Source of the DNA: a virus | Reading direction: 5' to 3' (one strand) | DNA: 53,511 nt | IMG/VR virus record: IMGVR_UViG_3300042339_000355 | Location: 1-53,511 of that record | In this document: piece by piece, positions 6,401 to 40,936 of the stretch | Layout: each line of letters opens with the position of its first letter | Position numbering within the stretch: the stretch's first letter is position 1 | Position numbers and translations under genes: made by a program | The notes under the pieces: generated by a model | Seen by the model: only the letters and a program-made list of their open reading frames with translations | Database searches by the model: none | What the model was told of the DNA's origin: nothing

Positions 6401-6408
6401 GGTATAAA

Positions 6409-15200: not shown

Positions 15201-16928
15201 TATTTAACTGCTCCTGCAAACGCGGCATATCAATTTGGTACTGGTGATTTTACAATTGAATATTGGATTTATCAAACAGTATCCGGAAGTTATAGAACAG
15301 TTTTGGATACTAGAACATCAGGAACAGCAAGTCCATGGGCATGTCTTATTAACTCTAGTAATCAACCTTATATTTTAATTACCTCAGATTTAACCAGCAG
15401 TATTGCTATAAATATTAATGCTTGGAATCATGTTGCTATAGTTAGATCTGGAACAAATTTATCTATCTATGTAAATGGTGTAAGTGGATTAAGCACTACA
15501 AATTCAACAAACATAAGTCCAACTGGGTCATTACGAATTGGTCTTACAGTTGATGCTGTATATCCAATCATTGGCTATTTGTCAAACATTCGTATTGTTA
15601 AAGGTACCGCAGTATACACAGGTGCATTTACTCCTCCAACAAGTCCACTAACTGCAATTGCCAATACAAGTTTATTGACATGTCAATCACCTACATTTAT
15701 AGATAACAGTACAAACAACTTTACAATCACTGCATTTGGTAATAGTCAGCCAACACAACAAAATCCATTCGGGTTTACTAGTGCAACTACAAATGGCTAT
15801 ACGGTTAGTACAATAGGCGGTAGTGGGTACTTTGATGGTACTGGAGATACTTTGAGTGTACCTGCAAATCCAGCATTTCAATTCACAGGTAATTATACTA
15901 TAGAATTTTGGATATATTTTACAAGTGTTGCTGGTGTACAGGATTTAGTTGCAAATTATGTATCAAGTGCGGCTCCTGATTGGACTATTCTTATAGCCCC
16001 GTCATTTCAATATTATCCGAGTAGTGCTGCATCATATGTTAATGGGCCCACTCCAGTTGCAAATAGATGGTACCATGTTGCCGCAGTTAGATCGGGGACA
16101 ACTTGCTCATTATACATTGACGGAGTATCAGTGGGTACTCCATTAACTTTCTCCGGAACATTAGGAGATGCTACAAGACCAGTATATATAGGTTCAAGAG
16201 GCGGTAGTAGCGGTTTTACCTTAGGTTATATGTCAGATGTAAGAATTGTTAGGGGTACAGCAGTTTACACCAGTAACTTTGTACCACCATCTGCACCCTT
16301 AACCGCAGTACAAAACACAAGTCTACTAACTAATATGACCAGTGCTGGTATATACGATGCCGCAATGATGAATAACATGGAAACAGTTGGTAATGCACAA
16401 CTAAGTACAGCAATAAGTAAATTCGGTGGGAGTAGTATGTATTTTGATGGTACCGGGGATTATTTAAGTTTACGATCAAATCCACTATATGCTTTTGGCA
16501 CTGGAGATTTTACAATTGAAGGTTGGCTATACCTTACAACAAATCAAAATTTTGGCGCAATGTTTATTTCATCAACAACTGGTACAGGAGACGCCCTTCA
16601 TATACAAATTAGTAATGCAAATAAAGTAAGAGTAACCAATGAAACTACTCAACTTTTATTAGCAACTAACGCAATATCTCTTACCACTTGGACACACATT
16701 GCTGTTGTTCGATCCGGAACTACACTGGCAATCTATCAAAACGGGATTTTAAATGGATCAACAACTAATAGTACCAGCTTTATTCAAAATGGTGCAGTAG
16801 TTGGGTATGAAATGGTAGGCGGTAATTTTTATTACACTGGCTACATAGACGATTTAAGAATAACAAAAGGTTATGCTCGTTATACAAGTAACTTCACACC
16901 ACCAACAAGTGCATTCCCGATATATTAA
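12282..16928 (+). CDS. Multi-domain adhesin: IPT/TIG, Ig-like and six LamG-like lectin domains
   Basis: A 1548-residue protein. Residues about 28-110 form an IPT/TIG domain (GGQTVQINGTGFLAGATITF); about 115-290 hold two putative-Ig (He_PIG-type) domains. Six concanavalin A-like/LamG domains follow, each opening with a YFDGxGD motif, at about residues 342, 554, 761, 964, 1181 and 1384. Each has a DFTIExWIY strand and a TWxHVAxVRSGTTLxIYxNG core, and successive domains are joined by DNSTNNFxIT linkers. LamG-like folds bind carbohydrate in many extracellular proteins, so this is probably a glycan-binding side fibre or spike. No catalytic motif is visible. The start overlaps the previous stop by ATGA. 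Spacing of 203-217 residues per unit and sequence divergence indicate old internal duplication. It could alternatively be structural decoration. Confidence 0.85.
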   Translation: MSITSVINDTVTSVSFVNAQKPLPPTISGYSVGGLDDTALDPAGGQTVQINGTGFLAGATITFDGSAVAVVTFSSANRLTFTSPAKSAGTYTIYVVNPDGGTAIYIPGIIYSVLPTWTTSAGTLGSYYETTSISNTVIASGDAPITYSLYSGSLPTGSTLYANGVITGTAPVDSSSTTYSFTIQATDAQLQDSTRSFSLTINVDAVTWVSPANNTTYTSAVDSAIANVTLSATDAAGYNVTYSANALPTGLSLTGSNIAGTPTVIADSSTLLTATAATTNRSAVRTINWSITVANDPYFEYNTLLIPGASTTFVDDASTNNFAVTINGDTKPNSFNPYTPGYYSNYFDGSGDRIVLSGSNFSLTGDFTLEAWVYIGSLATTRPIVCMGDDRFSPGGLFAINTSGKLYLFASNTAIFTGTGTSVVANSWTHVAFVRSGSTITGYVNGVVQGTSTSAISIGGTASYIGYELYNSGTGVEYLGNISNLRIVNGTAVYTSAFTPSTTPLTAISGTILLTCQSNTFVDNSSSPKTLTVVGNTLISSFDPFVPNSSYSTYGSGYFDGNDYLDVPINSAQFGTGAFTIDFWVYPTTLANTPAIIDFRSSVTAIFGQIYIAANGTVHFYLPVDIATTNTVTVNTWNHVAISRTAGTLKMFINGVSGYSSASTGTYNASAVYIGVSSSGSGGIVGYLSDMRFVIGTGVYTTDFTPPSAPLTAIANTSLLVLQNNQSVNNSVFLDNSTNNFLVTRAGNTTQGTFSPYGGNWSNYFDGASDYIRKAGAGVLTASGDVTIECWIYPLSSTVIGLFDGGPNEGDIMRNWPANRIGKVAGSDNPTFTVTANQWQHFACTFSSGNIKVFINGTLNASGTYAGGYSAGSNFDIGTINAGGDGSFNGYISNFRVTKSILYTTTFTPSTTPLTPITNTSLLTCQSNRIIDTSINNFTITKNGDVSVQRFSPFNPSSLTPTSYSGYFDGSGDYLTAPANAAYQFGTGDFTIEYWIYQTVSGSYRTVLDTRTSGTASPWACLINSSNQPYILITSDLTSSIAININAWNHVAIVRSGTNLSIYVNGVSGLSTTNSTNISPTGSLRIGLTVDAVYPIIGYLSNIRIVKGTAVYTGAFTPPTSPLTAIANTSLLTCQSPTFIDNSTNNFTITAFGNSQPTQQNPFGFTSATTNGYTVSTIGGSGYFDGTGDTLSVPANPAFQFTGNYTIEFWIYFTSVAGVQDLVANYVSSAAPDWTILIAPSFQYYPSSAASYVNGPTPVANRWYHVAAVRSGTTCSLYIDGVSVGTPLTFSGTLGDATRPVYIGSRGGSSGFTLGYMSDVRIVRGTAVYTSNFVPPSAPLTAVQNTSLLTNMTSAGIYDAAMMNNMETVGNAQLSTAISKFGGSSMYFDGTGDYLSLRSNPLYAFGTGDFTIEGWLYLTTNQNFGAMFISSTTGTGDALHIQISNANKVRVTNETTQLLLATNAISLTTWTHIAVVRSGTTLAIYQNGILNGSTTNSTSFIQNGAVVGYEMVGGNFYYTGYIDDLRITKGYARYTSNFTPPTSAFPIY

Positions 16929-19912: not shown

Positions 19913-20305
19913 ATGGCAATTAAAGTAATCGGGTCGACCGTAATTGACGACAATAAGGTATTTTTACCAAACAATTCAGCAGAAGTTAGTGCGACTGCTA
20001 CTATTAGTGCCGGCGTTTTAACACTAAATTTAAATATCGCTACTGTATTCAATGTCGCTTTAAATTCTAACATCACATCTATCACATTCTCTAACATACA
20101 ATCAGCAGGTAGAGCAAGTTCATTTGTACTAGTTTTCACTGCTGATGGTACTGCTCGTTCAGTTACTTGGCCTGCTAGCTTTCACTGGCCAGGAGGAACT
20201 GCTCCTACATTAACATCAAGTAATAACAAAGAAGATGTATTCACCTTTTTTACTACTGATGGTGGTATAAATTGGCAGGCATTTGTTTCAGGACAAAATT
20301 TATAA
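19913..20305 (+). CDS. Small phage tail-associated protein (130 aa), unknown function
   Basis: A 130-residue protein starting MAIKVIGSTVIDDNKVFLP, preceded by the strong site AAAGGAGCGAAG. It contains repeated beta-strand patterns (ATVFNVALNSNITSITF, SFVLVFTADG) and ends with a WPASFHWPGGTAPTLTSSNN segment and a Trp-containing C-terminus. Proteins with a VFNVxL / ITSxTF / SFxLxFTADGT pattern are common next to tail fibres in aquatic phages and often serve as a virion-tip or fibre-attachment module. No enzyme motif is present. Its stop overlaps the next start as TAATG, giving translational coupling. Confidence 0.72.
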   Translation: MAIKVIGSTVIDDNKVFLPNNSAEVSATATISAGVLTLNLNIATVFNVALNSNITSITFSNIQSAGRASSFVLVFTADGTARSVTWPASFHWPGGTAPTLTSSNNKEDVFTFFTTDGGINWQAFVSGQNL

Positions 20306-20814
20306 TGGCTAATTATGCTCATATTGTTGACGGTAATATAGAAGGTGTATACGACCTTATTCCAAATAATTGGAAAAATATCAGTAATTTTTATGCACTT
20401 ACAGAAGAAGAACGTTTATCATTTGGTTGGTATACATTAGTAAAAGCATACCCTGAATATAATCCAGAAACACAAAAAATAGATAATCCTAGACAGTATT
20501 TTACTGATGGTGTTGCGTATGAAACAATGGATATTATTGAGCTACCTAAATCAGTGATATACGAACCCTCGCCTGAAGATATACAGCTACAACAAGAACT
20601 ACGTACTAGAGATCAATGGAATTTGATAAGAGGTGAACGTGATACAAAGATGAAAGATTTTGAATGGCGATACACTCGATATGATAGACAACTTAGATTA
20701 GGTGAACCCACTGTAGATGATTTAACATTAATGGATGCATATATGCAAGCATTAGCAGATATTACTACGCAGACAGATCCTTTTAATATTATTTGGCCTA
20801 TGTTTGGTGGTTAA
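20305..20814 (+). CDS. Tail fibre assembly chaperone-like protein
   Basis: The start is taken at the ATG of the TAATG overlap with the previous stop, giving 169 residues beginning MANYAHIVDGNIEGVYDLIP; a longer frame from 20272 would add 11 unlikely residues. The N-terminal half describes a small beta domain. The C-terminal part runs ELRTRDQWNLIRGERDTKMKDFEW and later ALADITTQTDPFNIIWP. This follows the pattern of phage tail assembly chaperones (a paired R..RD helix, then RQAL-x-DI-T-Q and a P-x-x-I-x-WP end). Such proteins fold or attach fibre tips. Lying directly before the giant RCC1 gene, it may serve that protein. The family call is from motif pattern only. Confidence 0.65.
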   Translation: MANYAHIVDGNIEGVYDLIPNNWKNISNFYALTEEERLSFGWYTLVKAYPEYNPETQKIDNPRQYFTDGVAYETMDIIELPKSVIYEPSPEDIQLQQELRTRDQWNLIRGERDTKMKDFEWRYTRYDRQLRLGEPTVDDLTLMDAYMQALADITTQTDPFNIIWPMFGG

Positions 20815-20817
20815 AAT

Positions 20818-23800
20818 ATGTTATTAGAAAAATGGTTATTAACAGTCCAACCATCAACCGGCGGTGATATTGAATCATTATATATGTTCGGTGACAACAC
20901 TTGGGGTCAACTCGGAACAGAAAATACAGTTTTTAAATCTAGTCCAGTATTAATCGGTACACAATCATGGAGCCAAGTTGCAAGTGGATTAAGTCATACT
21001 ATAGGTATTCGTAGTGACGGTAAACTATTTGGATGGGGCGCCAATACATATGGTCAATTAGGCAATAATGATCTTACATTAGCACATCGTAGTAGCCCAG
21101 TACAGATAGGTGTTAATAATTGGAGTGCGGTTAGTACTAACGGTGATACTTCTTATGCTATTAATAATGATGGATTAATGTTTGCTTGGGGATTAGGGTT
21201 TAACGGTCAACTTGGTAATAATAGTATGTTATCATCTTGGGCGGCAAACAGTTGGACTCAAGTACTGGCCGGAAATACTATAGGTATAGAATCTGATGGT
21301 ACAATGTGGGCTATCGGTGGTATTAATAGCCAAGGACAATTGGGCCTTAATGACACAGTACATCGCAGTAGTCCAGTACAAATTGGTACAAGTACTTGGT
21401 CTGCATTAGGCGGAAGTGGCGGAACAACACGCACAGCACTACGTTCTGATAGTACACTGTGGGTATGGGGTAGTGCTGGTCAAGGGCAAGGAGGTAATAA
21501 TAATACAAATAATCTTTCAAGCCCTACCTTAACTGGTTCATTAACTTCAGTTCAAATCCAACAGTCATATGTATCTAGTATAGCTACTACACAACTTAGT
21601 TGGACAGCAGTATCGTATGGTGCCGCATGGTCAATGTTTGCTATAAGAAATGATGGTGCATTATTTGCTTGGGGACTTAATACTTATGGTAATTTGGGAT
21701 TAAATGATATTGTTAGACGTAGTAGCCCAGTACAAGTTGGTACTAGCAGTTGGTCTAGCGTATCTGCTAACGGATTTGCTACACTTGCAATACGAGCAGA
21801 CAATACTTTGTGGTCATGGGGGTATAATGCAGCCGGGCAGTTGGGATCAAATAACATTATTAATAGAAGTAGTCCAGTACAAGTTGGTACCGCTACTATT
21901 TGGAGTAAAGTAATAACTAACGGTGCGGTTAGTCAGGATAACGTTGCTGCCATAGACACAAACGGTGCATTATGGGTTTGGGGAAATAACACTAATGGAC
22001 AATTAGGTCTCAATGACGTTGGTGTACATCGCAGTAGTCCAGTTCAACTAGGCACAAGTAGTTGGACTATGGTCAGTGCTGGTTCTGGCATGACCGCCGC
22101 CATAACTACTACAGGTAACTTATTTACGTGGGGTGTTAATACTAATGGTCAATTGGGTGACACCACATTAGTTGCAAAATCTAGCCCAATACAAATTGGT
22201 ACAAGTAGTTGGACTATGGTCACTAGTGGAACAAGTGTCACAATGGGAATAACTACAGATGGTGCGTTGTATTCTTGGGGCACAGGTACCTATCTTGGTG
22301 AAGGACTGGGGATAAACAAAAGTAGTCCAGTACAAATAACTTCAATTAGAACATCAGCACAACAACAAACATATTTAACTACCATAGGAGTAACACCGCT
22401 TAGTTGGACTACTGTAGCCAATTTGACATTTACTACAGGTAGTAATACTAGATTGGCATTACGTAGTGATGGATTGTTATTTTCATGGGGACAAAATACT
22501 ATAGGACAATTAGGTCTAAATGATTTAGTACATCGTAGTAGCCCTGTGCAAATCGGTACAAGTAGTTGGGCTGCAATTGCTGGAGGCACATCATATGCAG
22601 CCGCAATCAAAATAGATGGAACATTATGGACATGGGGTCGTAATGATGAAGGTTCATTAGGACAAAATAATCAAATACATCGCAGTAGCCCGGTACAGGT
22701 CGGTACTGATACTGATTGGATAAAACTAGCATCCGGATCATCCATAGGACCGATGGCCGCTATTAAAAGTGGCGGTGGTTTATGGGCTTGGGGAGCTAAT
22801 ACAGTAGGCCAATTAGGACTAAATGACGCAGTAAATCGAAGTAGTCCGGTACAAGTTGGTAGTAGTAGTTGGACTATGGTAGCAAGCGGCACTAATTTTG
22901 GTACAAATTTAGCTGCCATACGAACAGACGGTGCTTTATTTATATGGGGTGATAATACACTGGGGCAGTTAGGATTTAATGATGCAGTAGCTCGTAGTAG
23001 CCCAGTTCAACTAGGCACAAGTAGTTGGACTATGGTTGCGTTAGGCGGGTCATTCACTGGTGCTATAAGTAGTAATGGTGCATTGTTTACTTGGGGGGCT
23101 AATGGGTCTGGTCAATTAGGGGCAGCCAGTTCAGTGCATCGTAGCAGTCCCGTACAAGTTGGAACTAATACATGGAATTATGTCAACAGTTGGACATCTA
23201 CTATGTATGGAATACGTAATGATGGTGCATTGTTTGCTTGGGGTTTAAATACTAACGGCGAATTGGGTGATAATACAACTGCTAATAAAAACAGCCCAGT
23301 ACTAATAGGTAGTAGTAGTTGGACTTTTGTTAATGGAGCTACTGCAATAGATAGTAACGGTGTGTTGTTTACTTGGGCAGGCAACACACAAGGTGGTGTA
23401 GGTGATAATACTATATTGCAACGTTCTAGCCCAGTATTTATTCGTGCAGGTATATTTGATTCATGGACTTATGTAAGTTCAGGTACAGATGAATATGGAG
23501 CTGTGCGTAGTGATGGTTTGTTATTTAGATGGGGATATAATGGATTTGGTGCGTTAGGTGGCAACCCAGGTAACCAATCATTACCATTACAAGTTACTAC
23601 TAGTAGTTGGACTATAGTACCGGCTGGGTCATCAGGCGGTATGGGTATTACTTCAGCCGGTCAATTATATACTTGGGGTATTGGTACTGACGGCCAAATA
23701 GGTGACGGTAACATGGTAACTATGTCTACACCTGTATTCATTCGCTCTATGAATGATTCTTGGACAAGTATAGGTGAAGGAAGTTTTAACTCAAACCATG

Positions 23801-26800
23801 TCGCTGGTATACGTAATGATAATACACTTTGGCTTTGGGGTCTAGGGACTAGTGGTCAATTAGGACAAAATAATGTTATAAATAGATCCCAACCAATACA
23901 GTTAGGTAAAGATTTATTAAGTTGGACATATCTATCAGGATCTAGTATGCCAGTAGATGGCACACAAACTGCGGCAGGCATAAGAAGTGATGGTAGTTTA
24001 TGGTCTTGGGGTAGTAATACATACGGTCAATTAGGTACAAATAATCAAATACATCGTAGTAGCCCTGTGCAGATTGGTACTAGTAGTTGGACTATGGTTA
24101 GTGCTGGACAAGGATTTTTATTTGCTATACGTAGTAGTGACAAATCACTTTGGTCATGGGGAACTGATAATTCATTAGGTGCATTAGGTGCAAACGTTAG
24201 TGGTCTTCTCAGAAGTAGTCCTGTACAGGTTGGTACAAGTAGCTGGAATATGGTTTCTGCTGGAAGACTAACTCCCATCGCTATACGTATTGATGGTACG
24301 TTATGGGCTTGGGGTTTCAATAATTCAGGACAAATAGGAGATAATACTGTTGTAGCTCGTAGTAGTCCAGTACAGATTGGTAATTTACTTTGGACCTCAG
24401 CGGTGTCAGGATTGGATTCATCGTCCTATGGTATACGATTAGATGGAACATTGTGGTCATGGGGTAAAAATACCGTAGGGGAGTTAGGAGAGAATGATGG
24501 TATTAATAGAAGTAGTCCAGTACAAATAGGTACCGGTAGTTGGAAACAACTAGCGGCAGGCTTCGGTAATGCTTTTAGTATTGACACTAATAATTATTTG
24601 TGGTCATGGGGACTTAATAGCCAAGGACAATTGGGCCTTAATGACACAGTACATCGCAGTAGTCCAGTACAGGTTGGTACAAGTAGCTGGATTATGGTTA
24701 GTGCAGGACAATCTGGTGATATTGGAAATGCATACGTTGTTTCTGCAATAAGAAGTGATGGAGCCTTATTTACTTGGGGTAATAATACGTATGGTGGATT
24801 AGGTGACAACTCAATTGTAAATAAATCTAGTCCAGTACAAATTGGTTCAAGTAGTTGGACTATGGTTGCTGGACGCATGGGAATAATACAGGACTACACT
24901 AATGGTAATGGGTATTTATACGCATGGGGCGGTAATACAGTCGGTGAATTAGGTATTAACAGTGTAGTAGATACTAGTAGCCCAGTGCAAGTAAATGCAA
25001 CTATTAATACTTGGTACCAAGTTGCACAGGGTGATACATTTACCGCGGCCATTCGTAATGATAAAACATTATGGTCATGGGGTAATAATGATGTTGGTCA
25101 ATTGGGGGACAACACCGTCATACTAAAATCAAGTCCAGTACAAGTTGGTACAAGTAGCTGGACTATGATAAGCACCGGCTCTACTCATACATTAGCTTTA
25201 ACCATGGACAATGTTTTATACGGTTGGGGCAATAATGATAATGGTCAATTGGGTACAGGTAATGCTCCAGGAACAATCTTATTACCTGTAATAATTTCAT
25301 CACTAATTACATTAGCTGATGAAATTGCTTGGTCAACTAGTACAGGTAAACCTAGAACATTGAGTTGGACTACAGTAACCGCAGGTGCATCTACTTCATT
25401 TGCTATTCGTAGCGATAGTAAGTTATTTGCATGGGGAACTAACAGTATCGGACAACTTGGTTTAAATGATATTCTACACAGAAGTAGTCCGGTACAAATA
25501 GGAACAAGTAATTGGAGTGGTATTGCTGCTGGCATAAGCCATACTTACGCTATTAGAAGTGACGGACTATTATTTGTTTGGGGTGGCAATTTTAATGGTC
25601 AACTTGGTCTAAATGATTTAGTACATCGTAGTAGCCCAGTTCAACTAGGCACAAGTAGTTGGTCAGTTGTACCATCTAATAGTACAACTAACGCTACATC
25701 TACCTTTGCTATTACGTTGGATGGAAAATTATATGGTTGGGGAGTCAATGGTTCTGGTAATCTTGGAGTAAACGATATTATCGCTAGAAGTAGCCCAGTA
25801 CAAGTAGGTACGGGTAACAGCTGGACATTAGTAACAGCAAATGGTAACAGCACATTTGCAATACGAACTGATAGTAAATTATTTGCATGGGGATTAAATA
25901 CAGCCGGTGAGCTTGGCATCGGTGACTCAATTTCACGCAGTAGCCCTGTACAACTTGGTACAAGTAATTGGAATATTGTTGCTACACAAGCATCTGGTAC
26001 AACAGCAGGTATAATGGCTAACAATACATTGTACACGTGGGGTTCTGGTTCAGGTGGTGCATTAGGGGATAGAACTGTAGTTGCTCGTAATAGCCCTGTA
26101 CAAATTGTTTCGTTCTCTTCACCTGCAGAACAACAGGCATATTTGACAAAGACAAGTAAGACTGGTTACAGTTGGTCTACTGTGGTAAATACCAATAATA
26201 CAATGTTTGCTATTCGTAATGACGGCTTATTGTTTGCATGGGGTAATAACATCAATGGCGCATTAGGTCTAAATGACATAGTGCATCGTAGTAGTCCTGT
26301 ACAAGTTGGTACTAATAGCTGGTTGACAGTATCAGCAGGAGCATCATTCACGGCTGCCATACGTAGTGATAATACATTATGGACTTGGGGAGTTAACACT
26401 GCAGGTACTGTAGGTGATGGTACACAGGCTCATCGTAGTAGCCCGGTACAAGTTGGTACAAGTAGTTGGACTGCTGTTGCAACAGGACCGTTTAACACTA
26501 CCGGCGGTACAGTATTAGCGGTTCGTAGTGATGGTACATTATGGAGTTGGGGTGCTAATGATGTAGGTCAACTGGGATTAAACACAGTAGTAGCTCGTAG
26601 TAGTCCAGTACAAATCGGTACTGAAAACACATGGTCAAAAGTTTATTCTGCAAATAATAGAAGTAATGCTATACGTACTACTGGCGCATTATATGCATGG
26701 GGAGTAAACACATTTGGACAACTAGGTGATGGCACTGCTCTAAATCGTAGTAGCCCAGTACAAATTGGTAGTAGCAGTTGGACTGCAGTAGCATCTGGTT

Positions 26801-29800
26801 TATCATGGACAGTAGCAATTCTCAGTGATGGTTCATTATTCACTTGGGGTGCAGGTACTAGTGGTGTGTTAGGAACTCCGGATTCTACCCAACATCGTAG
26901 TAGTCCTGTACAAATTGGTACAAGTAGTTGGAGTGTAGTAACTGCAGGCGGCACAGTCACAGCCGGTATAAGTGGTAATTTACTATATATGTGGGGTAGT
27001 GGAGCTAATGCACAGTTTGGTAATAACTCACTAGTGAACACATATTTTAGTCCAACACTTACTACAGGTACAAGTAGTTGGACTACCGTTAATGCAGGTA
27101 GTGCAATAGTCGCACTTGATGCAAATGGGCAAATGTTTACATGGGGAACTACTGCAGGTGGGGATGGCGTTATTGGTAATGGTGTTGTTGCCGGTAGATC
27201 CAGCCCAGTATTCATTCGTTCAGTAGCAGATTCTTGGACTGCAATTGGTACAGTTGTTGCAGGATTATCAGGAATACGAAGTGATGGTTTACTGTTTGCT
27301 TGGGGAAATAATACTGCTGGATCATTGGGTGATGGTACCACAGTTGCTAAATCATTCCCTGTACAAATTGGTGCAAATAGTTGGACAATGGTAACTGGCT
27401 ATACTAACATTTTAGGTATTACTGCAGCCGATACAGGTAACGCATTATTTACTTGGGGACTTGGTACTAGTGGAGAATTGGGTATATTAGGAATTACCAG
27501 CCGCAGTAGCCCGGTATTCATTCGCTCAATGAATGATTCCTGGATTAGCGTTGGCGCTGGACAAAGCTTGTCATCAGCTATTAGATCCGATGGAAAACTA
27601 TTTACTTGGGGAATTAATACAACTTTTGGACAGTTGGGTGATAATTCTACAACTAGTAAATCATATCCTACTCAAATAGGTAATAATAGCGACTGGGCAA
27701 GTGTTAGTGCTGCCGGTTCAGGAATAACCAATGCAATCACAACTACTGGTATAGCATATATATGGGGTAATAACACTAATGGAGCACTAGGATTAGCATT
27801 TAATCCAACAACTATATCAGGTAGTTGGTTAGAACATCGTAGTAGCCCAGTACAAGTTGGTGCAACACCATACTCAAATAGCCCAACACAAATAGGTGCT
27901 AGCAGTTGGTCACAAGTTAGTGCAGGTATAAGTCACGTGCTTGCTATTTCTAGTACTAATAAATTATTTGCCTGGGGTAATAATAGTTCATATCAGGTAA
28001 ATAATGAGGGATTACATCGTAGTAGTCCAGTACAACTTGGTACTAGTAGTTGGTCACAAATAAGTGCTGGCAACGTACATTCACTTGCTATTGCATCAGA
28101 TAATACATTGTATGGGTGGGGATTACAATATCAACAATGGCCATATAATCCAACATTAAGTCCCACAAACTTTATATTGCCGGTTAATTCTCCAACATCT
28201 TGGTCAATATTGACTGGACAAAATTTACGATTCACTGGTATTCGTAGTGACGGTAGTTTATGGACTTGGGGAGCTAACGAATCTGGACAATTAGGACTGA
28301 GTGATATATTTCATAGAAGCAGTCCAGTACAAGTTGGTTCTAGTAGTTGGATACAGGTTAATTCGGAAACATCTTGGACTACAGCTATACGCAGTGATGG
28401 TACATTGTGGGCTTGGGGTAACAACACTGACGGATATTTAGGGTTAAATGATTTAGTCCACCGCAGTAGTCCAGTTCAAATTGGTACCGATACTACTTGG
28501 AGTAAAGTAGGTGGACTTGGGGCTATACGTAATGATGGTAGTTTATGGACTTGGGGATTAGGTACTAGTGGTCAACTAGGGGATAGTACAATACTTAGTA
28601 GAAGTAGCCCAGTACAAATTGGTACAAGTAGTTGGACTTTAATTAATAGTAAGGCAGCTACAACTATGGCTGGTATACGTAGTGATGGTTTGTTATTTAC
28701 ATGGGGTATTAACGGCATCGGTGGTCTTGGTTTAAATGATACTGTCAATAAAAGTAGTCCAACCCAAGTAGGATCGATATATTCTCTTGCACAGCAAAAT
28801 AGTTATTTAACTGCAACTGGAACAACAACATTTAGTTGGTCTGTAATAAGCTCCGGTGGTGTAAATGGTATGACTGCAGCCATACGTAATGATGGAGCAT
28901 TATTCACGTGGGGAACTAATAACAACGGCGGTGTAGGAGATAATACTATCATCCATCGTAGTAGTCCAGTACAAATTGGCACAAGCAGTTGGACTCAGGT
29001 AGCAGTGGGAGATTTTTCTACATATGCTATACGTAACGATGGAGCATTATTTGTGTGGGGTCTAAATACTAGTGGACAATTAGGTACAACTGATGTATTG
29101 CCACGCAGTAGTCCAGTACAGATTGGTACTAGTAGTTGGACAAGTGTTGCGGCAGGGATATCGACTGTAACTGCAATACGACTTGGTGGTGCTTTATTTG
29201 CCTGGGGAATTAATGCTAGTGGTCAACTAGGACTAGGTGATCTTGTAGCTCGTAGTAGTCCTGTACAAGTTGGTACAAGTAGTTGGACACAGGTTAGTAC
29301 TAATGGTGCTATAACTGCCGCATTGCGTAGTGACGGCGGACTATTCACTTGGGGAATTAATACAAACGGACAGTTAGGTGATAATACCGTAGTAAGTAAA
29401 TCTAGTCCTGTAAAACTTGGTGCAGGTAGTTGGAGTCAAATAGCAGTTGGTTACTCACACATGGTAGGACTACTAAACAATAATACATTGTGGTCATGGG
29501 GCATTAATACTAATGGTGGTTTAGGTTTAACTAATGTTCTCCCTAGAAGTAGTCCAGTACAGATTGGTACTAGTAGTTGGACAAGTGTTAACGCAGGTAA
29601 TCAATACTCAGTTGCTATTCGTAGTGATAATACATTATGGGGCTGGGGACTAAACACAAACGGTCAATTAGGAGATAGTACTGCTATCTCCCGATCTAGT
29701 CCGGTACAAATTGGTACTAGTACTTGGTATAAGGTTAGTGGATTATATATTAATACGGCAGCTATAGATAACACAAGCAGGCAATTATTTGTATGGGGGC

Positions 29801-32800
29801 AAAATGCTGTTGGTGCAATAGGCAATAATACTGTTACACAATCTACTAGCCCGGTGTTCATTCGTACTGCTAATGAGTCTTGGTCACAAGTATCAATGAA
29901 TGTAAACACTGCGGCTGCAATACGCAGTGATAGTTTATTATTTGTATGGGGGCAAAATGCTAATGGACAATTAGGTTTAGGTGATCTAGTCCACCGTAGT
30001 AGTGCAACCCAACTTGGTACAAGTAGCTGGTCACAAATTACTGTTGGTCAAAGCCATATGGTAGGGTTAACTTCTACTAAGTTACTATATACTTGGGGTG
30101 GTAACGGCAGCGGAGAATTAGGTATTAACTCTGTTGTTGCTACATCTAGCCCAACATTAGTAAGTTTAAGTAGTTGGTCTATAATTGGTACTGGATCTAC
30201 TAATAGTTACGGTGTGCTCGATGGTAATCTATTGTTTTATGGTTGGGGTTCGGGTGCTAGCTACGGCGCTATTGGTGATAATACTGTAGTAAGTAAATCT
30301 AGTCCAGTACAAATTGCTAGCTACCAACCAATGCCTACACAAATCACAGGAGATACATGGAGTAAAATTAGTGCAGGTTATAGCCATAATGTAGGTATAA
30401 AGACAAATAACAAATTGTATGGTTGGGGTAACCCTGCCGCTAATACGTTTACCGCATATAGTTGGACTGCATTATCTAGCTCAGCCGGACATTTTGCAGG
30501 TATACGTAGTGATGGTGCACTATTTACTTGGGGTAATAACGCAGTTGGTAATTTGGGTGATGACACTATATTACATCGTAGTAGCCCAGTTCAAATAGGT
30601 ACAAGTAGTTGGACTACTGTTAGTGCAGGTGGAATAACAGCAGGAACCGACTTTACAACTTTAGCATTAACCGCAGACAACGTATTATATGGTTGGGGTG
30701 CAGGTGCTAGTGGACAACTTGGTCAACTGTTTGTGGCTAACAAGAGTAGCCCAGTACAAATTAGTTCATTTACAAATAACACTCTACAAAGTACTTACTT
30801 AACTGCTACCGGTAAAACAGGATTCAGTTGGACCAAAATCAATGCAGGTGGGTCTATTGGGAGTTCAGCGGCAATACGTAGTGACGGAGCATTGTTTACT
30901 TGGGGAATTAATTCATTTGGACAGCTAGGACAAAATTCGACTGTTAATACAAATAGTCCAATACAATTGGGTACAACTAGCTGGTCTCAGATATCAATAG
31001 GCAATAATGCAATGTATGCAATCCGTAATGATAATACGTTGTGGTCATGGGGATTAAATACAATAGGACAATTAGGTCAAAATGACTTAGTACATCGCAG
31101 TAGTCCTGTACAAGTTGGTACAAGTAGCTGGACTATAGTTTCAGGAAGTGTTGCAACAGGAACTCTTGTAAGTACTCTGGCTTGTGTTGGTGCAATACGT
31201 AGTGATGGTGCATTGTTTACTTGGGGTAATAATAACGCCGGACAATTAGGTGATGGCACTATACTACATCGTAGTAGTCCTGTACAAGTTGGTACAAGTA
31301 GTTGGACAAAGGTTAGTGCCGGAGATGTAAGTGTATATGCTATACGTTTGGATGGTGCTCTTTTCTCCTGGGGAGATAATACTAGTGGACAATTAGGATC
31401 AACTACTATCGTGCCACGCAGTAGTCCAGTACAAATAGGTACAAGCAGTTGGTCTAGTGTGTCAGCCGGACTGTCGTATGCTATGGCTATCCGAACTAAC
31501 TCTACACTGTGGTCTTGGGGTATTAATGCTAATGGTCAACTAGGAGACAATACAATATTACCTCGTAGTAGTCCAGTACAAATTGGTACAAGCAGTTGGT
31601 CTGTTATATCAACTGGATTTGCTACAACCACTGCCTTACGTCTTGACAACACTCTTTGGTCTTGGGGTATTAATACTAATGGTCAACTAGGAGACAATAC
31701 AATATTACCTCGTAGTAGTCCAGTACAAATTGGTACAAGCAGTTGGTCACAGGTTAGTATAGGCACGTCTCCTGGAGTAACTATGGCGTTGACTTATACT
31801 GATAATCAACTTTTCATTTGGGGACAAAATAATAATGGACAGCTTGGATTAAGTGAATCTCTTGGAGCCAGAAGTAGTCCAGTATTTATCCGATCAATAA
31901 ATGAGTCATGGAATGCAGTAAGCTCAGGTGGAACTACATCATATGGTATACGTATTGATAACTTGTTATTTGCTTGGGGTCTTAACGCTAGTGGTCAAAT
32001 AGGTGATACTACTATCATATCTCGATCTGCTCCGGTACAAATTGGCGCAAGTAGTTGGGCACAAATAAGTGCAGGCGTAACTTTTGTGGGTGGAATTACA
32101 TCTGATAATAGATTGTTTACTTGGGGTATTAATACTACAGGACAACTTGGAGATACTACAGTATTATCCCGCAGTAGTCCAGTTCAAGTTGGTACAAGCT
32201 GGAATATAGTAAGTGCTGGACAAAGCTCAACTTCTGCAATTAATACAAATAATTTATTATATGTTTGGGGCGGTAATGCTAGTGGACAATTAGGAGATAG
32301 ATCCATTGCTAATAGGTCTAGTCCAGTACAAGTAAATTCATTCACAAGTGCAGAGATACAACAGACATACTTGACTACTACAAGCAAACCTGCAGCCTTA
32401 AGCTGGAATACAATATCAACTGGACTGTCTACTAGTGCTGCCATTCGTAGTGACGGTGCATTGTTTATGTGGGGTTTAGGTACTAGTGGACAACTAGGTC
32501 TAAATGATACAATATCTCGTAGCAGTCCAGTACAAATTGGCACAAGCTCTTGGACTGCTGTTGGTTTATTTACTACATCAACCGTCGCTATTCGTATTGA
32601 CGGTGGATTGTTTACTTGGGGTGATAACGCATCAGGACAACTAGCATCAAATAATTTAGTACATCGTAGTAGTCCAGTACAAGTTGGTACAAGTAGTTGG
32701 ACCACCGTATCTTCATCAACAGGTCTTGCAAACTTTATGGCTCTTGATGCTACTAATAAACTATGGGCTTGGGGTATTAATACAAACGGTGAATTAGCAC

Positions 32801-33972
32801 AAAATGATACAGTCTCTCGTAGTAGTCCAGTACAAATTGGCGTTGGTACTGTTTGGACAAGTATTTCTAAAAATACATCACGTGGTGCAATACGTAGTGA
32901 TGGTGCACTATTTATGTGGGGACTTGGTACTAATGGTCAAATAGGTGACAATGCTATATTAAGCAGAAGTAGTCCTGTGCAAATAGGTACAAATAGCTGG
33001 AGTATTATTTCAGCCGGTAGTGTTGCAACAGCAGCCATTACTAGTGATGGACTATTATATGTTTGGGGAAATAATGCTAGCGGACAACTAGGAACAAACG
33101 ATGTGATACTAAGAAGTAGTCCGGTACAACTAGGCACTATTAGTTGGACATCTGTTAGTTCTGGTGTAAACTATATGGCTGGTGTACGTAGCGATAACTT
33201 ATTATTTACATGGGGATTAGGTACTAGTGGTCAATTAGGGGATAGTACAATAATTTCAAAATCAAGCCCAATACAAATTGGTACAAGTTCATGGGCTATG
33301 GTCTCAGCTGGTGGTCTATTTACTATTGGATTAGATCAGTTATATGGTTTATATACTTGGGGAACTAATACCAATGGTGAATTGGGAATTAATTCAGTAA
33401 CATCTGCATTAAGTCCAATATTCTTGCCCACAGCAACCGATTCTTGGACTATCACTTCAACAACTGGTGCAAGTCAATTTGCTATACGTAGTGATGGCTA
33501 TTTGTTTACTTGGGGTAATAATGCTAATGGTCAATTAGGATTATTAGACATTCTATCTAGATCAGCTCCGGTACAACTTGGTACTTCTATATATACTAAT
33601 TTAAATAAAGGTGGATCCAATATAAATTCATCGATGGCTACTCGCAATGATAACAAACTTTATGTTTGGGGTCTTAATACTAGTGGTCAACTTGGTCTAA
33701 ATGATAGGATCTCTAAATCCAGCCCAGTTCAATTAGGCACTAATCAAGCATATACTCCTCCTAATATGTATAGTGTGCCTACACAAATTGGTACATCATC
33801 TTGGACACAGGTATCTGCGAATTTTAATAGTACTTTTGTCATAGATCCTAACAATGTATTATACGAATGGGGATTCAACGACAATCGCCCATTAATACCG
33901 GCAATTACGTCGGTTGGTTACTCTGCAGTGACCGTATCAAATGGCTTTAATCACTTCGGGTTTACTAAGTAA
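20818..33972 (+). CDS. Giant RCC1-repeat (beta-propeller) virion protein, 4384 aa
   Basis: A single uninterrupted 4384-codon frame starting three bases after the previous stop. After a 16-residue leader (MLLEKWLLTVQPSTGG), essentially the whole protein is RCC1-type repeats of about 52 residues. Their consensus is LFxWGxNxxGQLGLND - RSSPVQIGTSSWT - VSAG - AIRSDGA; I count about 84 copies of the LxxWG...G core. RCC1 repeats form seven-bladed beta-propellers, so about twelve propellers could be stacked. Seven linkers with a QQxYLTxTxK-type core (21541, 22338, 25297, 26112, 28776, 30766, 32341) and VFIRSxNDSW variants divide it into super-units. No signal peptide or enzymatic domain is visible. 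From its place at the end of the fibre cluster, before a late promoter, it is probably an exposed tail appendage or adhesin. Function is inferred. Confidence 0.85.
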   Translation: MLLEKWLLTVQPSTGGDIESLYMFGDNTWGQLGTENTVFKSSPVLIGTQSWSQVASGLSHTIGIRSDGKLFGWGANTYGQLGNNDLTLAHRSSPVQIGVNNWSAVSTNGDTSYAINNDGLMFAWGLGFNGQLGNNSMLSSWAANSWTQVLAGNTIGIESDGTMWAIGGINSQGQLGLNDTVHRSSPVQIGTSTWSALGGSGGTTRTALRSDSTLWVWGSAGQGQGGNNNTNNLSSPTLTGSLTSVQIQQSYVSSIATTQLSWTAVSYGAAWSMFAIRNDGALFAWGLNTYGNLGLNDIVRRSSPVQVGTSSWSSVSANGFATLAIRADNTLWSWGYNAAGQLGSNNIINRSSPVQVGTATIWSKVITNGAVSQDNVAAIDTNGALWVWGNNTNGQLGLNDVGVHRSSPVQLGTSSWTMVSAGSGMTAAITTTGNLFTWGVNTNGQLGDTTLVAKSSPIQIGTSSWTMVTSGTSVTMGITTDGALYSWGTGTYLGEGLGINKSSPVQITSIRTSAQQQTYLTTIGVTPLSWTTVANLTFTTGSNTRLALRSDGLLFSWGQNTIGQLGLNDLVHRSSPVQIGTSSWAAIAGGTSYAAAIKIDGTLWTWGRNDEGSLGQNNQIHRSSPVQVGTDTDWIKLASGSSIGPMAAIKSGGGLWAWGANTVGQLGLNDAVNRSSPVQVGSSSWTMVASGTNFGTNLAAIRTDGALFIWGDNTLGQLGFNDAVARSSPVQLGTSSWTMVALGGSFTGAISSNGALFTWGANGSGQLGAASSVHRSSPVQVGTNTWNYVNSWTSTMYGIRNDGALFAWGLNTNGELGDNTTANKNSPVLIGSSSWTFVNGATAIDSNGVLFTWAGNTQGGVGDNTILQRSSPVFIRAGIFDSWTYVSSGTDEYGAVRSDGLLFRWGYNGFGALGGNPGNQSLPLQVTTSSWTIVPAGSSGGMGITSAGQLYTWGIGTDGQIGDGNMVTMSTPVFIRSMNDSWTSIGEGSFNSNHVAGIRNDNTLWLWGLGTSGQLGQNNVINRSQPIQLGKDLLSWTYLSGSSMPVDGTQTAAGIRSDGSLWSWGSNTYGQLGTNNQIHRSSPVQIGTSSWTMVSAGQGFLFAIRSSDKSLWSWGTDNSLGALGANVSGLLRSSPVQVGTSSWNMVSAGRLTPIAIRIDGTLWAWGFNNSGQIGDNTVVARSSPVQIGNLLWTSAVSGLDSSSYGIRLDGTLWSWGKNTVGELGENDGINRSSPVQIGTGSWKQLAAGFGNAFSIDTNNYLWSWGLNSQGQLGLNDTVHRSSPVQVGTSSWIMVSAGQSGDIGNAYVVSAIRSDGALFTWGNNTYGGLGDNSIVNKSSPVQIGSSSWTMVAGRMGIIQDYTNGNGYLYAWGGNTVGELGINSVVDTSSPVQVNATINTWYQVAQGDTFTAAIRNDKTLWSWGNNDVGQLGDNTVILKSSPVQVGTSSWTMISTGSTHTLALTMDNVLYGWGNNDNGQLGTGNAPGTILLPVIISSLITLADEIAWSTSTGKPRTLSWTTVTAGASTSFAIRSDSKLFAWGTNSIGQLGLNDILHRSSPVQIGTSNWSGIAAGISHTYAIRSDGLLFVWGGNFNGQLGLNDLVHRSSPVQLGTSSWSVVPSNSTTNATSTFAITLDGKLYGWGVNGSGNLGVNDIIARSSPVQVGTGNSWTLVTANGNSTFAIRTDSKLFAWGLNTAGELGIGDSISRSSPVQLGTSNWNIVATQASGTTAGIMANNTLYTWGSGSGGALGDRTVVARNSPVQIVSFSSPAEQQAYLTKTSKTGYSWSTVVNTNNTMFAIRNDGLLFAWGNNINGALGLNDIVHRSSPVQVGTNSWLTVSAGASFTAAIRSDNTLWTWGVNTAGTVGDGTQAHRSSPVQVGTSSWTAVATGPFNTTGGTVLAVRSDGTLWSWGANDVGQLGLNTVVARSSPVQIGTENTWSKVYSANNRSNAIRTTGALYAWGVNTFGQLGDGTALNRSSPVQIGSSSWTAVASGLSWTVAILSDGSLFTWGAGTSGVLGTPDSTQHRSSPVQIGTSSWSVVTAGGTVTAGISGNLLYMWGSGANAQFGNNSLVNTYFSPTLTTGTSSWTTVNAGSAIVALDANGQMFTWGTTAGGDGVIGNGVVAGRSSPVFIRSVADSWTAIGTVVAGLSGIRSDGLLFAWGNNTAGSLGDGTTVAKSFPVQIGANSWTMVTGYTNILGITAADTGNALFTWGLGTSGELGILGITSRSSPVFIRSMNDSWISVGAGQSLSSAIRSDGKLFTWGINTTFGQLGDNSTTSKSYPTQIGNNSDWASVSAAGSGITNAITTTGIAYIWGNNTNGALGLAFNPTTISGSWLEHRSSPVQVGATPYSNSPTQIGASSWSQVSAGISHVLAISSTNKLFAWGNNSSYQVNNEGLHRSSPVQLGTSSWSQISAGNVHSLAIASDNTLYGWGLQYQQWPYNPTLSPTNFILPVNSPTSWSILTGQNLRFTGIRSDGSLWTWGANESGQLGLSDIFHRSSPVQVGSSSWIQVNSETSWTTAIRSDGTLWAWGNNTDGYLGLNDLVHRSSPVQIGTDTTWSKVGGLGAIRNDGSLWTWGLGTSGQLGDSTILSRSSPVQIGTSSWTLINSKAATTMAGIRSDGLLFTWGINGIGGLGLNDTVNKSSPTQVGSIYSLAQQNSYLTATGTTTFSWSVISSGGVNGMTAAIRNDGALFTWGTNNNGGVGDNTIIHRSSPVQIGTSSWTQVAVGDFSTYAIRNDGALFVWGLNTSGQLGTTDVLPRSSPVQIGTSSWTSVAAGISTVTAIRLGGALFAWGINASGQLGLGDLVARSSPVQVGTSSWTQVSTNGAITAALRSDGGLFTWGINTNGQLGDNTVVSKSSPVKLGAGSWSQIAVGYSHMVGLLNNNTLWSWGINTNGGLGLTNVLPRSSPVQIGTSSWTSVNAGNQYSVAIRSDNTLWGWGLNTNGQLGDSTAISRSSPVQIGTSTWYKVSGLYINTAAIDNTSRQLFVWGQNAVGAIGNNTVTQSTSPVFIRTANESWSQVSMNVNTAAAIRSDSLLFVWGQNANGQLGLGDLVHRSSATQLGTSSWSQITVGQSHMVGLTSTKLLYTWGGNGSGELGINSVVATSSPTLVSLSSWSIIGTGSTNSYGVLDGNLLFYGWGSGASYGAIGDNTVVSKSSPVQIASYQPMPTQITGDTWSKISAGYSHNVGIKTNNKLYGWGNPAANTFTAYSWTALSSSAGHFAGIRSDGALFTWGNNAVGNLGDDTILHRSSPVQIGTSSWTTVSAGGITAGTDFTTLALTADNVLYGWGAGASGQLGQLFVANKSSPVQISSFTNNTLQSTYLTATGKTGFSWTKINAGGSIGSSAAIRSDGALFTWGINSFGQLGQNSTVNTNSPIQLGTTSWSQISIGNNAMYAIRNDNTLWSWGLNTIGQLGQNDLVHRSSPVQVGTSSWTIVSGSVATGTLVSTLACVGAIRSDGALFTWGNNNAGQLGDGTILHRSSPVQVGTSSWTKVSAGDVSVYAIRLDGALFSWGDNTSGQLGSTTIVPRSSPVQIGTSSWSSVSAGLSYAMAIRTNSTLWSWGINANGQLGDNTILPRSSPVQIGTSSWSVISTGFATTTALRLDNTLWSWGINTNGQLGDNTILPRSSPVQIGTSSWSQVSIGTSPGVTMALTYTDNQLFIWGQNNNGQLGLSESLGARSSPVFIRSINESWNAVSSGGTTSYGIRIDNLLFAWGLNASGQIGDTTIISRSAPVQIGASSWAQISAGVTFVGGITSDNRLFTWGINTTGQLGDTTVLSRSSPVQVGTSWNIVSAGQSSTSAINTNNLLYVWGGNASGQLGDRSIANRSSPVQVNSFTSAEIQQTYLTTTSKPAALSWNTISTGLSTSAAIRSDGALFMWGLGTSGQLGLNDTISRSSPVQIGTSSWTAVGLFTTSTVAIRIDGGLFTWGDNASGQLASNNLVHRSSPVQVGTSSWTTVSSSTGLANFMALDATNKLWAWGINTNGELAQNDTVSRSSPVQIGVGTVWTSISKNTSRGAIRSDGALFMWGLGTNGQIGDNAILSRSSPVQIGTNSWSIISAGSVATAAITSDGLLYVWGNNASGQLGTNDVILRSSPVQLGTISWTSVSSGVNYMAGVRSDNLLFTWGLGTSGQLGDSTIISKSSPIQIGTSSWAMVSAGGLFTIGLDQLYGLYTWGTNTNGELGINSVTSALSPIFLPTATDSWTITSTTGASQFAIRSDGYLFTWGNNANGQLGLLDILSRSAPVQLGTSIYTNLNKGGSNINSSMATRNDNKLYVWGLNTSGQLGLNDRISKSSPVQLGTNQAYTPPNMYSVPTQIGTSSWTQVSANFNSTFVIDPNNVLYEWGFNDNRPLIPAITSVGYSAVTVSNGFNHFGFTK
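21323..21380 (+). repeat. 58-base exact repeat, copy 1 (RCC1 gene)
   Basis: These 58 bases, covering the coding sequence for an NSQGQLGLNDTVHRSSPV segment, recur without change at 24614-24671. The surrounding blades are diverged, including at synonymous sites, which suggests recent copying between distant repeats of the same gene. Confidence 0.85.
24614..24671 (+). repeat. 58-base exact repeat, copy 2 (RCC1 gene)
   Basis: Exact partner of 21323-21380, about 3.3 kb downstream in the same reading frame and the same position in the RCC1 repeat. Confidence 0.85.
31510..31748 (+). repeat. Near-perfect tandem duplication of one RCC1 repeat (147-base period)
   Basis: The 92 bases at 31510-31601 recur at 31657-31748 with a single difference (aatgct versus aatact). 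The 147-base period equals 49 codons, one propeller blade, so the frame is kept. Neighbouring blades show much less DNA identity, marking this as a young duplication or conversion tract. Confidence 0.85.
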
Positions 33973-34056: not shown

Positions 34057-35778
34057 ATGCACGAAATAGATATGATGCTCAAGCTTCAATTAGAAGGTAA
34101 ACATCTAGAAGCCAGAATATTATCAGATAAATTAGAAAACATAGGCCCTGAAAAAATAGTAGACGCTAAAGGACAAAATACAGAAGATATTTGGATGCGT
34201 CATTGCTTTAACCGTGGTTGGTTTATGATTCAAGACGGTGACTATAGAAAAGGCTGTCAACTATTAGAGAATGGTCGCTTCTTAAATGTATACGGTAGCC
34301 CTCCTCTTAAAACAGATGCACCTATTTTTAACCCAGAAAAACATTCTATCAACGATAAATCTATTATTGTATCACTAGAAGGTGGGTACGGAGATGAAAT
34401 CATTCACGCACGTTTTGCTACTAGCTTTAAAAAACAAGGTGCAAAATCAGTATACATCGCTTGTGCACCTGAACTAGTATCAGTATTTGAACGTATTGAA
34501 GGTGTAGATAAAGTTATACTACGAAATCAATCACATACTGTACCTCATGATTATTGGGTTCCTGGATTTAGTGCCGGATGGGTAGCTGGTCACGAATTCT
34601 CAAACTTTCCAAACGATCCTTATCTAACTGCTAAAGCTGATAGTATTGAAATTTGGAAAACATTCGTCAACAGCGAAAAAATTAAAGTTGGTATTCGTTG
34701 GGCAGGCAATCCTAAATTTGAACATCAACAATTTAGAAAGTTTCCAGAGAACTTTATCACTAACTTAGCAAAATATGATGAACTACAGGTATATAGTTTG
34801 CAAAAGGATCATAACATTATTCAACTACCTGAAAATGTAACTGACTTGCAACACTTCTTGTTAAGCTGGGAAGATACAATGGCAGCTATTGCTAATATGG
34901 ATATCGTTATCTCATCTTGTACAAGTGTAGCACACTTAGCAGCCGCAATGGGTAAAGAAACATGGGTCATCGTTCCTATACTCCCGTATCATACGTGGAC
35001 ACCAGGCTCACCTGATGCTAACACAAGCCCATACTACAAATGTGTACAAATCTTTAGACAAACAGATCCAAAGAAATGGGACCCAACATTCCAAAGTCTT
35101 TACACTGCACTAGAAGCACGTTTCAACTTAAAACATATCGATCAACCAAATGAGGATCGTGTCACTAAGAAACTTAACTTGGGTTGTGGCTTTAAGAAAT
35201 TTGATGGATTTGTTAACGTTGATAAATCACCATTCATTGATGCCGATGAACAGGTTGATTTAAGTGTTCTACCTTGGCCATGGAAAGACAACGAATACTC
35301 ACACGTTGTAGCTAAAGATATATTAGAACATCTAGGAGAAACTGGTAGAGACTTCATTGATGTTATTAAAGAACTATATCGTGTAAGTGAGAATGGTGCT
35401 GTTTGGGAAATACAAACTCCACATTGGCGCTGTGATACTGCATTAGATGACCCAACACATAAACGATTGATTACTGTTGCTATGTTTAACTTGTTTAACA
35501 AACGTCATATGTTTGAAAAAGCAAATAAAGGTGAAAGTGATTCATTACTAGCATTTGAAGAAGATATTGATATCGAAGTATGTGATACTCAGTTTGAGTA
35601 TACTGATCCATATCAACAACGTCTATCTAATGGCAAAATAACGCAAGAAGAACTTACTCATGCCCTAAATCACTTGAATAATGTAGCATTATCAACTAGA
35701 ATGTTAATTCAAGTACACAAACCTGGTCGTATTGACTACAGTGAATTTAAACGGGCATTAGATGGACACAAATCTTAA
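34057..35778 (+). CDS. TPR/GT9-like glycosyltransferase fused to SAM methyltransferase
   Basis: A 573-residue fusion. Residues 1-90 are helical and TPR-like (LKLQLEGKHLEARILSDKL; FNRGWFMIQDGDYRKGCQLL). Residues about 100-355 form a GT-B glycosyltransferase of the GT9/TPR type: GGYGDEIIHARF near 109, VGIRWAGNPK near 212, and the nucleotide-sugar site SSCTSVAHLAAAMGKETW near 286. Residues about 368-573 form a methyltransferase with LNLGCGFKKFDGFVNVD as motif I and AKDILEHL as the post-motif. GT9 includes ADP-heptose transferases; related TPR-GT enzymes modify proteins or glycans. An enzyme that adds and then methylates a sugar would fit. CGGAGAA precedes the start, and it is the first gene after a late promoter. 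The next gene starts 17 bases before its stop. Acceptor and donor are not known. Confidence 0.8.
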   Translation: MHEIDMMLKLQLEGKHLEARILSDKLENIGPEKIVDAKGQNTEDIWMRHCFNRGWFMIQDGDYRKGCQLLENGRFLNVYGSPPLKTDAPIFNPEKHSINDKSIIVSLEGGYGDEIIHARFATSFKKQGAKSVYIACAPELVSVFERIEGVDKVILRNQSHTVPHDYWVPGFSAGWVAGHEFSNFPNDPYLTAKADSIEIWKTFVNSEKIKVGIRWAGNPKFEHQQFRKFPENFITNLAKYDELQVYSLQKDHNIIQLPENVTDLQHFLLSWEDTMAAIANMDIVISSCTSVAHLAAAMGKETWVIVPILPYHTWTPGSPDANTSPYYKCVQIFRQTDPKKWDPTFQSLYTALEARFNLKHIDQPNEDRVTKKLNLGCGFKKFDGFVNVDKSPFIDADEQVDLSVLPWPWKDNEYSHVVAKDILEHLGETGRDFIDVIKELYRVSENGAVWEIQTPHWRCDTALDDPTHKRLITVAMFNLFNKRHMFEKANKGESDSLLAFEEDIDIEVCDTQFEYTDPYQQRLSNGKITQEELTHALNHLNNVALSTRMLIQVHKPGRIDYSEFKRALDGHKS

Positions 35779-40906: not shown

Positions 40907-40931
40907 TATTTACTACAGGTTATGTTAGAAT
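40903..40931 (+). promoter_or_regulatory. Possible sigma70-type promoter before the heptose genes
   Basis: TTGATA (40903-40908), a 17-base spacer and TAGAAT (40926-40931) resemble a good -35/-10 pair. The ATG of the following gene is only six bases after the -10 box, so any transcript would be nearly leaderless, and no ribosome site is seen. The -35 overlaps the end of glf. It may be chance in AT-rich DNA. Confidence 0.35.
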
Positions 40932-40936
40932 AGTGT

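Follow-up and report, generated by a model that had tools for sequence, protein, structure and literature searches.

One polypeptide of 4384 amino acids, encoded in a 53.5-kb linear IMG/VR record (the whole stretch of DNA analysed here, hereafter the window), is likely to form a tree of twelve seven-bladed RCC1 propellers and to act, most plausibly as a virion protein of the tail fibre complex, in multivalent binding to the host. The repeats, junctions, counts, conservation and gene order described below are as read from the sequences, and the features of the window are collected in Table 1.

A giant RCC1 gene is intact and conserved

The open reading frame (ORF) is intact over 4384 codons from its ATG start, and it confirms the preliminary description of an uninterrupted 13-kb frame. 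Searching the protein with PF00415 (RCC1) gave 77 matches, the best at 1.0e-14, of which 76 exceeded the curated cut-off (four only together with their neighbours), and none of 14 control genomes was positive in the same search. A profile built from the protein's own repeats resolved 84 blades of ~49 residues each, so that the repeat number of about 84 proposed earlier stands whilst the proposed spacing of about 52 residues was slightly high. Since three other IMG/VR contigs carry the same ORF without interruption between ATG and stop (L011, L012 and L009, with 0, 0 and 2 amino-acid differences respectively), the frame is no assembly accident. A more distant homologue in L013 has 4388 amino acids and 84 blades, is 67.6% identical over 4353 aligned residues and carries the same kinds of linker at the same positions. 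For 60 of the 84 window blades the best match in L013 is the same-numbered blade, indicating that blade order is stable between the two proteins, and a dN/dS of ~0.32 between them indicates purifying selection on the frame; the corresponding values are 0.28 for the neighbouring S74 fibre and 0.05 and 0.03 for two downstream genes. A nucleotide search with the window matched no near-identical DNA in phages, and the terminase family PF03237 was found in none of four records (three of the window phage and one of L013), with 4 of 16 other records positive.

Table 1. Features of the window, with the rings and branches of the giant RCC1 protein as assigned from its junctions.
Feature	Position	Strand	Basis
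Giant RCC1 protein, 4384 aa, 84 blades	20818..33972	+	ORF, PF00415, own blade profile
N-terminal peptide MLLEKWLLTVQ... before first blade; candidate docking peptide	20818..20874	+	loose start pattern, 34/37
First part of core ring (blades 1-3); blade 1 with c,d alone, blade 3 without d	20875..21240	+	
Branch 1, blades 4-45 (6 x 7), separating strand c from strand d in core blade 3	21247..27861	+	
Ring P1, part 1 (blades 4,5)	21247..21540	+	
Ring P1, other parts	23758-23907 (blade 20), 25006-25299 (28,29), 27538-27861 (44,45)	+	
Ring Q1, part 1 (blades 6-10) and part 2 (18,19)	21598..22344; 23461-23748	+	
Ring R1 (blades 11-17), within Q1	22429..23445	+	
Ring Q2 (blades 21-27), within P1	23920..24996	+	weakest marks
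Ring Q3, part 1 (blades 30-34) and part 2 (42,43)	25363..26106; 27232-27528	+	
Ring R2 (blades 35-41), within Q3	26170..27222	+	
Core blades 46, 47, preceded by displaced strand d of core blade 3 (ATPYSNSPTQIG)	27862..28164	+	
Branch 2, ring P2, part 1 (blades 48-51) and part 2 (59-61)	28195..28776; 29878-30318	+	
Long opening linker, modelled helix (model residues 206-216)	28777..28833	+	AlphaFold2
Ring Q4 (blades 52-58), within P2	28834..29868	+	UVR8 match of model
Core blade 62, preceded by displaced strand d (SYQPMPTQITG)	30319..30432	+	
Branch 3, ring P3 (blades 63,64,72-74,82,83) enclosing Q5 and Q6	30460..33741	+	
Rings within P3: Q5 (blades 65-71) and Q6 (75-81)	30826-31896; 32401-33429	+	
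Displaced strand d, core blade 84, C-terminal strands a,b (would complete blade 1)	33742..33969	+	
Tail fibre assembly chaperone, directly 5' of giant gene	20272..20814	+	PF16778, phrog_4912
Tail fibre protein	19913..20305	+	phrog_9017
Tail fibre / baseplate-type protein, C-terminal S74 chaperone	16982..19882	+	PF13884
573-aa gene directly 3' of giant gene, conserved, locus anchor	34057..35778	+	phrog_6636 methyltransferase

Bracket-like junctions divide the blades into twelve groups of seven

Each blade carries four strand motifs, a (SWTQVSAG), b (HTAAIRSDG), c (LFAWG) and d (SSPVQIG), and variation within the blade peaks at columns 10-12, 27, 29-30 and 35-40, that is, between these motifs. 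The termini of the window protein are complementary half blades, with strands c,d at the start and a,b at the end, a layout shared by the small phage RCC1 proteins examined. Two kinds of junction, seven of each, interrupt the series: blades 5, 10, 29, 34, 51, 64 and 74 are each followed by a long linker (AEIQQTYLTxTGK...SW type), and junctions of the type SPVFIRxxxDSW follow blades 17, 19, 41, 43, 58, 71 and 81, the last reading SPIFLP. Taken as opening and closing brackets, the two kinds balance. Strand d is missing from blades 3, 47 and 62, and an extra d-like strand precedes blades 46, 62 and 84. When these marks are combined with the brackets and with the junctions KDLL and NATI, the weakest-marked pair, which bound the Q2 insertion, all 84 blades are accounted for by twelve groups with exactly seven members (the core group of blades 1, 2, 3, 46, 47, 62 and 84, and P1-P3, Q1-Q6, R1 and R2), eleven of which sit inside loops of other groups. 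When the 14 main junctions were placed at random 500,000 times, the rule of seven was never satisfied, a figure that overstates the case because the junction classes were picked after inspection of the data.

Seven inserted rings were also compared pairwise, and shift 0 gave the best register for 17 of the 21 pairs, among them most of those involving the two split rings, the first and last blades of these inserted rings themselves bearing the defining linkers. Blade similarity at fixed lags gave no lag-7 signal (2.40, within a range of 2.31-2.47); its maximum of 2.47, at lag 24, fits a duplicated Q1R1/Q3R2 block. Of 74 RCC1 ORFs searched by pattern, only those of the window and L013 showed the pairing of long linker and VFIR junction at more than one site.

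Relatives mostly vary by whole rings and appear to nest by displaced strands

Relatives were gathered by scans with the giant protein and with the conserved downstream gene, and RCC1 ORFs were present in 76 of the 85 loci examined first, a set in which seven loci had been chosen by RCC1 itself and some contigs occur twice. Their proteins range upwards from 418 aa (L120). In the split gene G012 the second ORF reaches 7937 aa, and G017, whose frame is open at its start, has at least 8626 aa; both occupy the corresponding locus, and they weaken the earlier suggestion that the window protein would be one of the largest single virion polypeptides. Single chains among the relatives seen hold 7 to 95 blades, and the relatives span 1, 2, 3, 4, 5, 6, 11, 12 and 13 rings' worth. 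The 418-aa protein (L120, 8687-9940) has eight blades and perhaps forms an eight-bladed ring, and in L028/L029 (3621-12487) six RCC1 genes are clustered, each of about one ring (446-473 aa) with its own N-terminal stretch.

The simplest relatives help to explain the others. A 1407-aa protein of 28 blades (L042) lacks strand d in blades 3, 12 and 20 and has an extra d after blades 10, 19 and 27, which places three seven-blade rings inside a seven-blade core; L043 (1059 aa, 21 blades) has a core with two inserted rings, and L070 (1783 aa, 35 blades) has, by eye, four rings in a core, ring 12-18 being weakly marked. In L140 (2118 aa and 42 blades, the same in each of three contigs) an automatic rule found five openings and five closings that yield six groups of exactly seven, five deep, an outcome that 200,000 random placements never produced. 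Parsing by pattern succeeded for L140 and L042 and failed for L043 and L070, whilst a profile-based parser resolved L043.

The profile-based rule, in which a missing strand d is an opening and an extra strand d a closing, was then applied to 43 proteins of at least 14 blades, a set in which split ORFs, close relatives and lectin-insert proteins are represented. Exactly seven blades were owned by 57 of 119 closed inserts and some other number by the remaining 62, compared with a mean of 5.5 of 97 when labels were shuffled under the same rule (maximum 12 in 200 shuffles); at the strictest of six thresholds the figures were 39 of 92 against 4.2 of 79. Complete parses numbered 4 of 43 at the loosest threshold (L042, L043, L044 and L140, two of them near-identical) and 3 of 43 at the others (L043, L044 and L140). 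The window protein is not completely parsed by this rule and needs the second junction type and the weak Q2 marks.

Blades were counted in 61 proteins, after removal of entries with the same first 25 residues and of repeated contigs; from these, 16 split or RCC1-adjoining entries, one near-duplicate and one three-blade protein were left out. Blade totals were divisible by seven in 19 of the 26 large unsplit proteins (binomial P about 2e-11), or 17 of 24 once the window/L013 and G006/G009 pairs were collapsed, and missed a multiple of seven in the other 7 of 26. Among small RCC1 proteins, 13 of 17 had exactly seven. All 23 seven-blade fragments fell into one seven-blade register on L043 in MAFFT, and likewise on L140; global alignment of full-length L042 and L070 onto L043 misplaced the core, and contiguous pieces were used instead. 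By BLAST, core pieces b1-3 and b11-12 of L042 found their best match on the window at the expected sites, and L042 pieces b20 and b28 and all three L043 core pieces did not. One scan of bacterial genomes with L140 gave three weak relatives (22-28%), and for this reason no host is named.

Several giant genes are split mid-blade, between strands c and d (L057, L065, L078, L097, L099, G005, G010, G011, G012 and G016), some with an overlapping stop/start (ATGA) or direct abutment. Two complete split pairs add up to 105 and 56 blades, each a multiple of seven, and the split genes possibly encode two chains joined through one shared blade. Many inserts of about 220-270 aa occur in G012 (L133+L098), G017 (L138+L059) and the split pair in L027. 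Those portions of these inserts that were searched contain Laminin_G_3 lectin domains, which lie among the blades in 1, 9 and 7 stretches of the three sequences tested, two of which are partial.

A structure model places a closed ring on an inserted group

Structure prediction, put forward in the preliminary description as a check on the propeller fold, was carried out for blades 48-61. AlphaFold2 with 27 sequences gave a model with pLDDT 89.2 and pTM 0.80 in which the long linker is a helix. In VIA-align the eleven UVR8 entries listed match the model between residues 215 and 569, over 343-352 residues at an rmsd of 1.3-2.1 A, and because blades 52-58 correspond to model residues 222-566 the closed ring is predicted to be the inserted one, as nesting predicts, though the ends of the alignment rows were chosen by hand and may favour the 52-58 register. 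The modelled seven-bladed fold concerns blades 52-58 only; the outer ring P2 (blades 48-51 and 59-61) would close around the insertion. A two-sequence AlphaFold2 run on blades 63-84 was unusable (pLDDT 36.7). Matches of the blade 48-61 model in BFVD include RCC1-type proteins of giant viruses (Pithovirus, Hyperionvirus and others) and of uncultured Caudovirales phages, the latter up to 1342 aa.

These results bear on the arrangement of the rings. The preliminary description had expected about twelve seven-bladed propellers, which the twelve groups of seven, the seven-fold counts and the one modelled ring support, but had set them in a string. Twelve consecutive propellers (blades 1-7, 8-14 and so on), forming a long flexible appendage, would also fit 84 = 12 x 7, and the protein UTS52180 of Synechococcus phage BUCT-ZZ01 has 14 regular blades with no visible insertion marks. 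However, the linker phase modulo 7 is not constant, the linkers nest as brackets, strand d is displaced in relatives, and a linear chain would put ring borders near model residue 370, whereas the model closes its ring at blades 52-58 and not at 48-54 and 55-61. Linear tandem propellers were therefore rejected on junction phase, relatives and model, and we regard them as improbable.

Gene neighbourhood and virion data for homologues point to the tail

The tail fibre gene (phrog_9017) and then the tail assembly chaperone precede the giant gene, the chaperone scoring 29.5 bits with PF16778 (cut-off 26.6). A chaperone-sized ORF lies directly upstream in 6 of 9 relatives examined, PF16778 exceeds its cut-off in 6 of 7 upstream genes tested (the BUCT-ZZ01 gene falling just under), and genes lying upstream in L042, L043 and L120 are matched by tail fibre families. 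In the Pseudomonas phages PollyC and Ppr_SeaP3, RCC1 repeats occur in a protein of 865-867 aa with a Phage_T7_tail-like N-terminus (23 bits, just below the cut-off of 25.2). A PHROGs scan found no known tail-attachment domain in the window protein, whose repeats are preceded only by a short N-terminal peptide; a loose MLLEKWLL-like pattern recurs in 34 of 37 first-ORF starts and in 2 of 11 second ORFs. The window protein gives matches to three RCC1 families of PHROGs, phrog_4219 with 1161.5 bits over 28 stretches, and the remaining PHROGs matches are weak or unnamed. Three phrog_4219 RCC1 proteins were identified by mass spectrometry (MS) in virions of phage W70, and the RCC1-type GAP32 gp1 was identified by MS as a structural protein, according to the parts consulted of the respective reports (PMC11370258; PMC5259590).

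Three further observations concern the window itself. The same tail cluster encodes a 1548-aa protein (12282-16928) that has six Laminin_G_3 stretches together with a putative Ig domain family; genes for a UDP-galactopyranose mutase, a heptose nucleotidyltransferase-like protein, a phosphoheptose isomerase-like protein and a sugar epimerase lie downstream (39902-43453), with a possible role in surface-sugar remodelling; and two adjoining glycine-rich proteins (Gly_rich_2) are encoded at 5489-7311, where local G+C reaches 0.47.

The gene neighbourhood, the T7-type fusion, the MS of virion homologues and the lectin inserts in relatives favour an adhesin linked to the tail fibre. The earlier proposal of a tail appendage thus gains support from neighbourhood, fusion and the virion MS of single-ring homologues, and the window protein itself is probably a virion component. 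A secreted or intracellular multivalent binder, such as a decoy or host-takeover factor, would fit the finding that RCC1 families are the only named strong PHROGs matches in the protein, but it sits poorly with the tail gene neighbourhood, the tail-fibre fusion and the MS of homologues, and we think it decidedly unlikely, somewhat more so than the linear chain. Least probable of all is an RCC1 protein that orders packaged DNA within the capsid, as the name suggests and as was proposed for the eleven RCC1-like genes of jumbo phage phAPEC6 (PMC7247149) and repeated for W70, whose virions contain RCC1 proteins (PMC11370258; both sources seen in part), since the window gene and its counterparts in relatives adjoin genes for tail fibre and tail chaperone, RCC1 repeats follow a T7-type tail fibre N-terminus in two phages (just below cut-off), the giant gene evolves like the S74 fibre, and relatives bear inserted lectin domains. 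The sections consulted of PMC7029224 yielded no mention of RCC1 under 'chromosome condensation'.

A branched adhesin compared with known RCC1 proteins

For the tree that we favour, we propose that a single chain would fold into twelve seven-bladed propellers around a core ring closed by pairing of its N-terminal strands c,d with its C-terminal strands a,b. Three core blades would be opened between strands c and d to admit branches of 42, 14 and 21 blades, and these would bear further inserted rings to a depth of four. Assembly may be aided by the chaperone encoded just upstream and docking may proceed through the N-terminal MLLEKWLL peptide, and the many loop surfaces displayed together would allow multivalent attachment to the host surface, where host glycans are the candidate ligands. 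The giant protein would presumably resemble a fibre-tip adhesin such as gp38 of S16-like phages.

RCC1 rings in phages are already known, and so, from the parts consulted of PMC10830417, is domain insertion in an RCC1-like ring, that of UBR5. Single-ring phage proteins of PHROGs 4219, 7220 and 16766 share the RCC1 blades, mostly seven per protein, and include W70_237-239, GAP32_001 and S-SRM01 gp335/337/344, the last with an adjacent tail fibre gene; they differ from the window protein in having one ring per gene with no nesting seen. With three matching PHROGs families and many phage RCC1 proteins in BFVD, the earlier view that such phage proteins are rarely described is weakened. PollyC gp12 and Ppr_SeaP3_12 have few blades and a T7-type N-terminal attachment in place of the short peptide. 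BUCT-ZZ01 UTS52180 (700 aa) has the same gene order, following a tail fibre and a chaperone-like gene, and two rings' worth of blades. The inserts of UBR5, a eukaryotic ubiquitin ligase, are UBA and dSBB domains rather than propellers and are placed without recursion, as described in the parts consulted of PMC10830417. UVR8, RCC1 and HERC1/2 rings share the predicted fold of blades 52-58, but have unrelated cellular functions, and the solved chains compared are single rings. Eukaryotic RCC1 is a Ran exchange factor that binds Ran and nucleosomes, whereas the RCC1 name in PHROGs is an annotation of phage proteins and not a tested function. A search of open-licence papers found no description of nested or branched RCC1 propellers, and propellers repeatedly inserted in propellers to give a tree are thus apparently undescribed.

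More broadly, and with a little less assurance than for the window protein, we think that phages of this group encode recursively branched proteins in which propellers sit in the loops of propellers to a depth of four to five, a gene-encoded dendrimer that varies by whole rings, can bear lectin domains in its loops and would give tunable multivalent binding to the host. If so, a branched, tree-shaped protein can arise from one linear chain by repeated domain insertion, and relatives with 1-6 and 11-13 rings' worth of blades would provide ready-made stages; the architecture could also serve protein design and folding studies as a modular scaffold. The label 'regulator of chromosome condensation' would then be misleading and stand corrected, and a group of uncultured phages would gain a plausible multivalent adhesin.
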